DNA of 64,000 bases, taken from contig NC_088936.1 of the NCBI RefSeq assembly GCF_033473495.1, positions 3,906,001 to 3,970,000 on the forward strand, in the 5' to 3' direction. Source of the stretch: Cercospora beticola. Taxonomy: Eukaryota; Ascomycota; Dothideomycetes; Mycosphaerellales; Mycosphaerellaceae. The translations under genes were made by a program, and so were the position numbers. The number at the start of each line of letters is the position of its first letter. Within the stretch, counting starts at the first letter, position 1. A model generated the notes under the pieces. That model worked only from the letters and a program-made list of their open reading frames with translations, was not told the origin of the DNA and did not search any database. This document shows positions 14,463 to 16,845 of this stretch, piece by piece.

Positions 14463-16845
14463 ATGTCTTACGGCGGCGGCGGTTACGGTGGCTCCCGTGG
14501 CGGCGGCGGCGGAGGCTACGGCGGCAGCAACGGCTACTCCAATGGGTACGACAGCGGATACAACTATGGCTCTCAGAGCCGCTACGATGATCGCACATAC
14601 TCCTCCTACGGGTAAGCTCGATAATCAGGCGGACTGAGGGCCTATGTATACTCCATTTTCTCATTATTATTATATGTCGTGTTATCGAAACATGCGCTAA
14701 CATTTCACTGCAGAGGCGGCGGCGGCTACTCAAATGGCGGCGGCTATGGCGGAGGCGGTGGTGGCTACTCCAACGGTGGCTCGAATGGCTACGGCGGTGG
14801 AGGCTACGGCGGTGGTGGTGGCGGCGGCGATCGCATGAACAACCTTGGCGCCGGTCTGCGCACACAGCAGTGGGATCTGAGCACTCTGCCCAAGTTCGAG
14901 AAGTCCTTCTACAAGGAGCACCCAGATGTTGCAGCCCGCTCGCAAGCCGAGGTCGACGACTTCCGCCGCAAGCACCAAATCACCGTGCAAGGTCGCGACG
15001 TTCCAAAGCCAGTCCACACATTCGACGAGGCTGGATTCCCCAACTACGTGATCAACGAGGTCAAGGCCCAAGGCTTTGCCAACCCAACCGCCATTCAATC
15101 TCAAGGCTGGCCTATGGCTCTTTCTGGTCGCGACGTTGTTGGTATCGCCGAGACTGGTTCCGGAAAGACCCTCACCTACACACTACCCGCCATCGTCCAC
15201 ATCAACGCACAGCCGCTCCTCGCCCAAGGTGACGGGCCCATTGTCCTTATTCTGGCTCCAACTCGCGAATTGGCTGTTCAGATTCAAGAGGAGGTGAGCA
15301 AGTTTGGAAAATCATCGCGCATTCGCAACACATGCGTCTACGGCGGTGTGCCAAAGGGCGGTCAAATCCGTGACCTTGCACGCGGTGTCGAGGTCTGCAT
15401 TGCCACTCCAGGTCGTCTCATCGACATGCTCGAGGCCGGCAAGACCAACCTCCGCCGTGTTACCTACCTTGTCCTTGATGAGGCCGATCGTATGTTGGAC
15501 ATGGGTTTCGAACCACAAATTCGCAAGATCATTGGTCAGATTCGCCCAGACCGTCAGACATGCATGTGGTCTGCTACTTGGCCAAAGGAGATTCGCCAGA
15601 TGGCGAACGACTTCCAACAGAACTTCATCCAGGTCAACGTTGGTTCGCACGACTTGCACGCCAACGCCCGCATCACTCAAGTCGTTGAGGTCGTCTCAGA
15701 CTTCGAAAAGCGTGACAAGATGTTGCGCCATCTCGAGAAGATCATGGAGGACAAGGGTCACAAGATTCTGATCTTCACCAGCACAAAGCGTGTCGCCGAC
15801 GACATCACCCGTTTCCTTCGCCAAGATGGCTGGCCCGCCCTCTCCATTCACGGTGACAAGCAGCAAAATGAGCGTGATTGGGTGCTCAACGAGTTCAAGA
15901 CGGGCAAGAGCCCAATCATGGTTGCCACCGACGTGGCTTCCCGCGGTATTGGTATGCTTGCAAACATCCCCGTCCCTCCCTTCTCCCTTCCCCTTCCCCC
16001 TCCCACTCACACGTGTGGGGTCTGTCATGTCGAAGCTACGCTCTGTACGCTCGGCGTGCACACATAACCATTCTCGTCTAGGGCTGTCAGTGTTTCGTTG
16101 TTCTTCGCCGGATCCTTGGAGACTTTCCTCGGCAAAGTTTTGCTTTGCCGTGTCCTTCCGTTTCTCTGCTCCCTGTTGTCGCCAGTAGAGAATCGGATCA
16201 TGAGTCTTTCAATGTTGCGTTGGTTTCACAGCTGCGCGCGTCCAAGGATCCCACCAGGAGAATGTTGCACGGCCCTGTGAAGACATTGTGGATGTAAATG
16301 TGCGCGCAAGAGCGTGACGCTCCTTGTTCTATGCCAGACAAGGTAGCCATGAGTGACGCATATCGCGCACCAGACAGATCTCGCATCCGGCAAAGGATTG
16401 CTATTGCTCGCTTCACTCACCACTCCCAACCACAGCATTGAACTAACATTTGTGCGCGTCAAAGACGTCAAGGACATCACTCACGTGTTCAACTACGACT
16501 ACCCAAACAACTCCGAGGACTACGTGCACCGTATCGGTCGTACTGGTCGTGCCGGTCGTATGGGTATTGCCATCACCCTGTTCACCACAGACAGTAAGTT
16601 GTCCTGGACACCGTCTCCACACGCAATGCTAACACCATTTTCCAGACTCAAAGCAGGCTCGTGACCTCGTGAACATCCTTCGTGAGGCCAAGCAGCAGAT
16701 CGACCCACGTCTCGAGGAGATGGTCCGCTACGGAGGCGGTGGCGGTGGTGGTGGCTGGCGCGGTGGTCGGGGCGGTCGCGGTGGTGGCCGTGGCGGCTGG
16801 ACCGGTGGGAATAACGCTCCTCTCGGTGGCAACCGCCGCTGGTAG
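14463..16845 (+). CDS. DBP2: ATP-dependent DEAD-box RNA helicase Dbp2 (p68/DDX5 family)
   Basis: 571-residue helicase acting in ribosome biogenesis, mRNP assembly and nonsense-mediated decay in yeast. Exons: 14463-14611, 14714-15951, 16465-16593, 16646-16845. The N-terminus is a Gly/Tyr/Ser low-complexity stretch interrupted by intron 1. Core motifs in order: AETGSGKT (I), PTRELA (Ia), TPGRLID (Ib), [10 protein letters not shown] (II), SATWPKE (III), IFTSTKR (IV), TDVASRGID (V, rebuilt across intron 2) and [11 protein letters not shown] (VI). The C-terminus is an RGG-type Gly/Arg tail ending in NRRW. Intron 2 is 513 bases, roughly ten times the local norm, and lies between motifs V and VI. 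Length and domain order are normal for the family. Confidence 0.96.
15952..16464 (+). promoter_or_regulatory. Long structured intron of DBP2
   Basis: Donor G|GTATGC at 15952, branch site ACTAAC at 16442-16447, acceptor CAAAG| at 16464. The exons join to give [13 protein letters not shown]. Retention leads to a stop at 16065-16067. Inverted repeats lie inside: an 11-base arm (16110-16120, GGATCCTTGGA) and its exact complement (16241-16251); a hairpin with an 8-base stem and 5-base loop (16130-16137 with 16143-16150) enclosed by it; 5- and 6-base stems at 16310-16322 and 16322-16343; and a palindrome CACACGTGTG at 16008-16017. In budding yeast the DBP2 intron mediates autoregulation by its own protein; the same role here is an inference. 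Confidence 0.85.

Follow-up and report, generated by a model that had tools for sequence, protein, structure and literature searches.

Can an RNA helicase gene sense its own product through an intron? This question is raised by the DBP2 gene of the fungus Cercospora beticola, which lies in a 64,000-nucleotide (nt) stretch of contig NC_088936.1 (positions 3,906,001 to 3,970,000; hereafter the window) and carries a 513-nt intron late in its coding sequence. A first-pass annotation had suggested that nested inverted repeats make this intron, intron 2, a self-sensing switch. Our analysis points to a larger unit, a rod-like predicted fold of about 360 nt with sequence conserved in related genera, which is probably a cis-acting control element for DBP2; Dbp2 itself may be the reader of the rod and thus the sensor, an assignment that we offer tentatively.

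A long, late intron in DBP2

The gene and the landmarks of intron 2 are located as follows.

14463..16845, + strand: DBP2 gene, exons 14463-14611, 14714-15951, 16465-16593 and 16646-16845, encoding 571 amino acids (aa)
15952..16464, + strand: intron 2 (513 nt), which splits the Asp codon that follows helicase motif V, phase 1 (ASRGI|D)
15952..15957, + strand: 5' splice site GTATGC; 57 of the 120 relatives listed read through it as Gly-Met (G|GNATG)
15965..16007, + strand: pyrimidine-rich leader of 43 nt (93% C/T), immediately downstream of the 5' splice site
16065..16067, + strand: TAA, the first in-frame stop on intron retention, before motif VI and within a conserved block
16443..16447, + strand: branch-point motif CTAAC, the sole CTRAY within intron 2

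By homology, the gene is the DBP2/DDX5 orthologue. The part of exon 2 used as a query is 100% identical to the C. beticola and C. kikuchii proteins, and the models from these species (P0004 and P0006, respectively) both comprise 571 residues with an identical intron-2 junction. Pfam DEAD and Helicase_C domains were found on P0004, and the top solved-structure matches of the gene are S. cerevisiae DBP2 (E 1.8e-179), followed by human DDX17 and DDX5. The source genome (36 Mb, 10 contigs) contains a single full-identity copy of DBP2, the next DEAD-box match being 48% identical. The initial placement of a 513-nt intron at 15952-16464, between motifs V and VI, was confirmed: the junction, ASRGI-(G|AC)-VKDI in phase 1, is the same in both models and in the output of a self-written gene finder, a crude tool trained on 264 kb of the same genome, which recovered this exact intron and the same set of DBP2 introns (102, 513 and 52 nt).

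Among 68 predicted introns in the 264 kb, the median length was 64.5 nt; 50 measured at most 150 nt and 10 at least 513 nt, including DBP2 intron 2, and the other nine long ones are suspected to be mostly false joins of neighbouring genes. The description of the intron as very long therefore holds against the median, while the companion statement that nearly all others span 44-70 nt is only roughly correct, intron 1 of the same gene having 102 nt. The acceptor ends in CAAAG, and with weights set by hand both donor and acceptor of intron 2 score lowest among the three introns of the gene. The single CTRAY compares with about two expected by chance, a rarity that is not unusual; an extra internal branch point, looked for in intron 2 as a sign of a nested intron (stwintron) or poison exon, was not present. 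Windows as pyrimidine-rich as the leader occur in 2 of 40 strands of 10 kb from the same genome. As initially read, retention runs into a stop before motif VI, the TAA at 16065, and on conceptual translation it would truncate the helicase so that motif VI is lost.

The last exon-2 residue aligns to residue 424 of S. cerevisiae Dbp2. Yeast DBP2 exon 1, which we take to be 1273 nt long, i.e., 424 codons plus one base, would end in the same codon and phase, and it is presumably followed by an intron of 1002 nt. The intron is given as 1 kb in PMC4191890, and according to Kilchert 2015 (PMC4695336) the position and length of the DBP2 intron are conserved between S. cerevisiae and higher eukaryotes. 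The residue-424 alignment and this statement support the identification of intron 2 as the known ancient DBP2/DDX5 intron, which is autoregulatory in budding yeast (PMC4695336, PMC5393171), in agreement with the first-pass annotation; in the comparison of intron positions that it proposed, yeast agrees by the alignment, given the assumed exon length, and for human the agreement is as stated in PMC4695336. In a distant eukaryotic DBP2 gene (L002, JAIYDP010000354.1), an intron of 284 nt interrupts the same codon in the same phase, the two other introns measured in that gene being 43 and 38 nt long. The contig that carries it is filed under a Verrucomicrobiaceae metagenome-assembled genome, yet its DBP2 is eukaryotic and has spliceosomal introns, which marks the contig as contamination. 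The seven DEAD-box paralogue loci with the highest scores in the C. beticola genome were checked on both strands, and six of them have no intron between motifs V and VI.

An intron in this position could also act by ending the transcript, with premature cleavage and polyadenylation or termination inside it yielding a short message. The S. cerevisiae DBP2 intron does contain a Ysh1-dependent terminator and mapped poly(A) sites (PMC4191890, PMC5393171), but none of four AATAAA-like hexamers looked for is present in intron 2, an argument of little weight given the loose signals of fungi; we consider this route very improbable.

A rod-like fold beyond chance expectation

According to structure prediction, intron 2 as a whole folds better than chance, mainly via one long rod.

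16020..16379, + strand: rod-like predicted folded element, closed by 16020-16026 with 16373-16379
16054..16062, + strand: 5' strand of a rod helix of 9 base pairs (bp), pairing with 16299-16307 and overlapping the conserved block GCACACATAACCAT (16058-16071)
16110..16120, + strand: 5' arm of an inverted repeat, 11 nt, with a conserved CCNTGG core
16130..16150, + strand: inner hairpin, 8 bp with a 5-nt loop, not conserved in relatives
16241..16251, + strand: 3' arm of the inverted repeat, 11 nt; at pair 16112-16249 the A-U of C. beticola is replaced by U-A in the relative P0015

The minimum free energy of the whole intron is -168.2 kcal/mol (z -3.5), a value that none of 100 shuffles matched, and z -3.5 was likewise not reached by any of 110 windows of 513 nt drawn at random from 20 sampled stretches in the same genome. 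For the subregion 16018-16380, chosen after viewing the fold, z was -6.7 with 20 shuffles. The best-supported long-range helices of the predicted fold include those that join 16054-16062 with 16299-16307, 16080-16085 with 16271-16276, and 16110-16119 with 16242-16251, and the predicted rod persists when 60 nt of exon are added on each side.

The two elements that had first drawn attention, the 11-nt inverted repeat (16110-16120 with 16241-16251) and the enclosed hairpin (16130-16150), are present exactly as annotated. Exact inverted repeats of at least 11 nt arise in 23 of 1000 dinucleotide shuffles and 8-bp hairpins in 28 of 1000, so that, taken alone, they are weak, marginal evidence. The notion of a foldable intron is thus retained, as the intron is more structured than chance, with the unit corrected from two hairpins to the rod of about 360 nt. 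Of the smaller stems annotated at 16310-16343, the local one (16322-16328 with 16337-16343) is recovered, and 16310-16316 pairs with 16046-16052 instead in the predicted fold.

A 15-nt direct repeat (87%; 16130-16144 and 16388-16402) places a second copy of the conserved block CGGCAAAG inside the inner hairpin and would permit mutually exclusive pairings with 16143-16150, for example 16143-16150 with 16388-16395. This alternative pairing was set aside because the hairpin copy lacks conservation.

A rod of this kind could serve only to let a long intron splice efficiently, with no regulation involved. When closed, it would shorten the distance from the 5' splice site to the branch point from 494 to about 135 nt, and zipper stems are predicted in 32 of 88 S. 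cerevisiae introns (PMC12350175); however, about 135 nt still exceeds the 85-nt linker limit of that study, although hairpins in the linker could shorten it. We regard such a purely spacing role as distinctly unlikely.

Conserved non-coding nucleotides in related fungi

Relatives were compared as translated tails, that is, through metagenomic and some public proteins whose open reading frames cross the border between exon 2 and the intron or that between the intron and exon 3. The exon-2 search contributed the best 120 of 7986 scored hits and a second list the best 120 of 999, giving 240 listed hits in total. The best 120 of the exon-2 search comprise 58 spliced proteins and 60 in which Gly follows, in 57 cases as Gly-Met (G|GNATG). 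After length and pattern filters, 97 tails remained, 43 from the 5' side of the intron and 54 from its 3' side, each of which was aligned to intron 2 in a codon-degenerate manner and compared with 200 shuffles at a threshold of z 6. Of the 97 tails, 39 exceeded the threshold, comprising 24 of the 43 5'-side tails and 15 of the 54 3'-side tails, with no shuffle scoring as high; 37 remain without the near-identical Cercospora rows P0002 and P0122. The tail alignment was built from the 39 tails and the block map from the 37.

16207..16241, + strand: conserved block TTTCAATGTTGCGTTGGTTTCACAGCTGCGCGCGT inside the rod, covered by at most five relatives
16365..16409, + strand: strongly conserved 3' block GCGCACCAGACAGATCTCGCATCCGGCAAAGGATTGCTATTGCTC, seen in the tail alignment and the block map

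The tails match intron 2 in all three reading frames, and the 3' block is translated differently among rows, in different frames. These nucleotide-level matches in three frames indicate that the intron holds conserved non-coding nucleotides, not a conserved peptide. In the block map, conserved positions also take in the donor GTATG and the branch-point region, while the leader region appears in the relatives' tails as P/S/L-rich sequence. Sixty exon-2 proteins were placed in a tree, in which 19 of the 57 inner branches are well supported. Zymoseptoria tritici is joined there by P0012, P0013 and P0015, and Hortaea by P0017, both placements with good support; the support is weaker for other matching rows, which lie close to Piedraia or within a mixed group that includes Friedmanniomyces, Recurvomyces and Saxophila. 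The Friedmanniomyces model P0061 itself carries RIRQRIAIA. As judged from these tails, conservation extends beyond Cercospora to Zymoseptoria- and Hortaea-like lineages.

Intron DNA of relatives was sought in the viral_contigs collection, with a protein and with a 23-nt conserved motif as queries, and no match was obtained. A search of genome_contigs gave 122 loci, of which 80 were kept: L002 at 68% identity and 79 loci, prokaryotic by record title, at 35-43% identity. A region search with the P0013 tail matched only P0013, P0012 and P0015.

Seven public models (P0018, P0048, P0061, P0066, P0068, P0072 and P0078, from Hortaea, Exophiala, Friedmanniomyces, Phialophora, two Aspergillus and Lecanosticta) depart after ASRGI from the spliced junction (DVKDI/DVRDI), and the residues in its place look intron-derived. 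These models may reflect annotation pipelines stumbling on the DBP2 intron, or retention forms.

Hosted RNAs typically show up as conserved blocks within introns, and the intron could harbour an independent non-coding RNA, snoRNA-like or a small-RNA precursor, that is freed after splicing. The intron sequence, moreover, has one match in the genome, itself. Against such a guest stand the lack of any Rfam 15 match at gathering score in the window, the chance level of the two sub-threshold Rfam matches obtained with the intron alone (best E 1.5), the absence from intron 2 of the C box RTGATGA and the D box CTGA, and the fact that conservation also covers the donor and branch-point region. Short hinge and tail motifs of H/ACA snoRNAs (ANANNA, ACA) do occur, but the predicted fold is one long rod without an Rfam match. 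A hosted RNA is, in our estimate, quite improbable. The plainest possibility, an ordinary long intron kept by descent only and carrying chance inverted repeats, would agree with the shuffle frequency of the repeat taken alone and with the possible existence of other long introns; the fold excess and the nucleotide conservation across genera in three frames argue against it so strongly that we give it next to no credence.

Tests of conserved pairing

The pairs of the predicted fold were tested in six rows, namely P0012, P0013, P0015 and three composites, each made of two rows combined solely on the equal length of their longest contig (27154, 104695 and 6824, respectively). Only 22 of 409 pair cells were unable to pair, compared with 90-129 when partners were slid, a low count that mostly reflects conserved sequence. 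Over 16018-16391, codon-compatible identity was 0.88 at paired and 0.71 at unpaired positions among the 37 rows, which were picked for similarity.

The outer stem, formed by the inverted repeat, gives the clearest signal. In each of P0012, P0013 and P0015, in which both arms are readable, a 10-bp register without a forbidden pair is available, ranking first of 181 windows in P0013, first of 177 in P0015 and third of 179 in P0012; windows without a forbidden pair numbered 6, 4 and 9, respectively. We set the registration of this stem to window positions across an insertion. Pair 16112-16249, A-U in C. beticola, is U-A in P0015 with both letters fixed by the codons, and U with A or G in P0012 and P0013. 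The translated rows thus point to an outer stem kept with one clear compensatory change, A-U to U-A. The first-pass annotation had proposed to look for compensatory changes in the stems and had counted a lack of stem conservation in close relatives against its switch: the outer stem is kept, with that single event, so that the objection fails for this stem, the inner hairpin at 16130-16150 is not kept in the rows of the pair test, and the fold as a whole shows no covariation beyond controls.

Several observations weigh against a conserved regulatory rod. The relatives are translated ones only, and the rows of the block map were selected for similarity. Among the 69 changed cells of the six rows, the pairable fraction was 0.409, within the range of slid controls (0.344-0.420), and five cells with both partners changed were pairable against 0-5 in controls; whole-fold covariation by codon sets therefore gave no excess among changed cells. 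The compensatory change counts as one event, since P0012, P0013 and P0015 are closely related, and it was found by inspection of chosen arms. Furthermore, 58 of the 97 tails fell below z 6, including Aspergillus, Exophiala, Phialophora, Polyplosphaeria, Parathielavia and Sordariomycete rows, so that the element looks lineage-limited, whereas autoregulation is claimed for distant yeasts. Four of the rows below the threshold, P0039, P0033, P0084 (Piedraia) and P0029 (Phyllosticta), still reached z 3.5-4.4, with 0-1 of 200 shuffles as high, and, also among the 58, the tails of P0044, P0079, P0084 and P0104 contain, by eye only, a DPW/NPW word that would correspond to the CCNTGG core.

A possible feedback on DBP2 splicing

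The intron, its position, the stop codon, the fold excess and the conservation of sequence and of one stem are observed; from them we infer the control step. In the proposed mechanism, the conserved rod of about 360 nt would influence in cis how its own transcript is spliced. With little Dbp2 present, the rod would be free and intron 2 would be spliced; when nuclear Dbp2 is plentiful, it would bind or remodel the rod and splicing would fail. The retained transcript, with its stop at 16065 and its helicase without motif VI, would then be destroyed, and Dbp2 would fall, closing a negative feedback. Self-sensing by the helicase is plausible in the light of yeast: Dbp2 represses its own splicing through the intron in S. 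cerevisiae (PMC5393171), a helicase-dead dbp2 mutant relieves intron retention in the same species, and the S. pombe dbp2 intron shows low splicing efficiency and a negative effect on the mRNA (PMC4695336). Decay routes plausibly exist in the fungus as well, because its genome encodes UPF1 and contains YTH-domain matches.

A rival reading is decay without self-sensing. The retained intron would recruit a nuclear RNA-binding protein and the exosome, or RNase III would cut the duplex; unspliced DBP2 pre-mRNA would be removed, and the speed of splicing under stress would set the level. The orthologous S. pombe intron recruits Mmi1 and lowers dbp2 mRNA (PMC4695336), the YTH-domain matches are candidate Mmi1 counterparts only, and a long imperfect duplex would be a plausible RNase III target. 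However, the Mmi1 motif TNAAAC has no site in intron 2, which leaves the Mmi1 route unsupported in this fungus, and the S. cerevisiae data point to Dbp2 itself (PMC4695336, PMC5393171). Decay without sensing is in our view unlikely.

One YTH-domain match (G000, C10:9608-10138) contains 17 internal stop codons and is apparently a decayed copy.

Surroundings of the gene

About 0.7 kb 3' of the DBP2 stop, an interstitial telomere-like TTAGGG tract (17516-17545) comprises three copies, two of them adjacent. The roughly 8 kb downstream of the gene (16850-24888) hold no gene of at least 400 coding nt on either strand as predicted by the crude gene finder. Neighbouring open reading frames at 10026-12127 and 57472-59058 correspond to a PPR-repeat protein and an arylsulfotransferase-family protein, respectively.

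Relation to known introns and significance

Barta and Iggo reportedly described in 1995 that yeast DBP2 controls itself through its conserved intron. The S. cerevisiae intron resembles that of C. beticola in lying late in the same gene, in being unusually long and, on the exon length assumed above, in interrupting the same codon in the same phase; it differs in being longer (about 1 kb versus 513 nt). Intron 2 of S. pombe dbp2, orthologous according to the statement of PMC4695336 on position and length, recruits Mmi1 and promotes decay, whereas the Cercospora intron is without the TNAAAC motif; the authors of that paper describe the factors that repress S. pombe dbp2 splicing as unknown. In RPL7B (PMC12311795), as proposed here, an intron fold acts on the splicing of its own gene under the control of a protein, but that protein is ribosomal rather than a helicase, and the folds of RPL7B are mutually exclusive, whereas the candidate alternative in DBP2 lies in a non-conserved hairpin. 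Structural RNAs in fungal introns and untranslated regions (PMC8216456) are likewise conserved folds in introns of protein genes in part of the Ascomycota; the query genomes of that study were S. cerevisiae, C. albicans, N. crassa, A. fumigatus and S. pombe, none of them a Dothideomycete.

The main text of PMC8216456 makes no mention of DBP2, helicase or DEAD, nor does that of the yeast intron-structure study PMC12350175 mention DBP2, and in the accessible portion of the open-licence literature we found no conserved folded element reported for the DBP2 intron of a filamentous fungus. In the sources covered, the DBP2 intron and its role are already known: yeasts and human share it, in S. cerevisiae it mediates autoregulation, and in S. 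pombe it promotes decay. What appears to be new here is a conserved folded rod inside the intron, for which no Rfam 15 family or literature match was found.

No RNA feature is named as the helicase sensor in the portions of the literature covered, and the rod is a concrete candidate. As the element occurs in a group with many sequenced genomes, the question can be tested by covariation and stem swaps, and the element could help to explain the odd public gene models at intron 2. A broader proposal, which we find speculative and unlikely as a whole, is that a broad group of Dothideomycetes carries in the DBP2 intron a conserved RNA of about 360 nt, as yet undescribed, which would itself serve as a substrate of the helicase, so that splicing reads the unwinding activity of free nuclear Dbp2. 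If this were true, the DBP2 gene would gauge the enzymatic activity of its product and not its amount.
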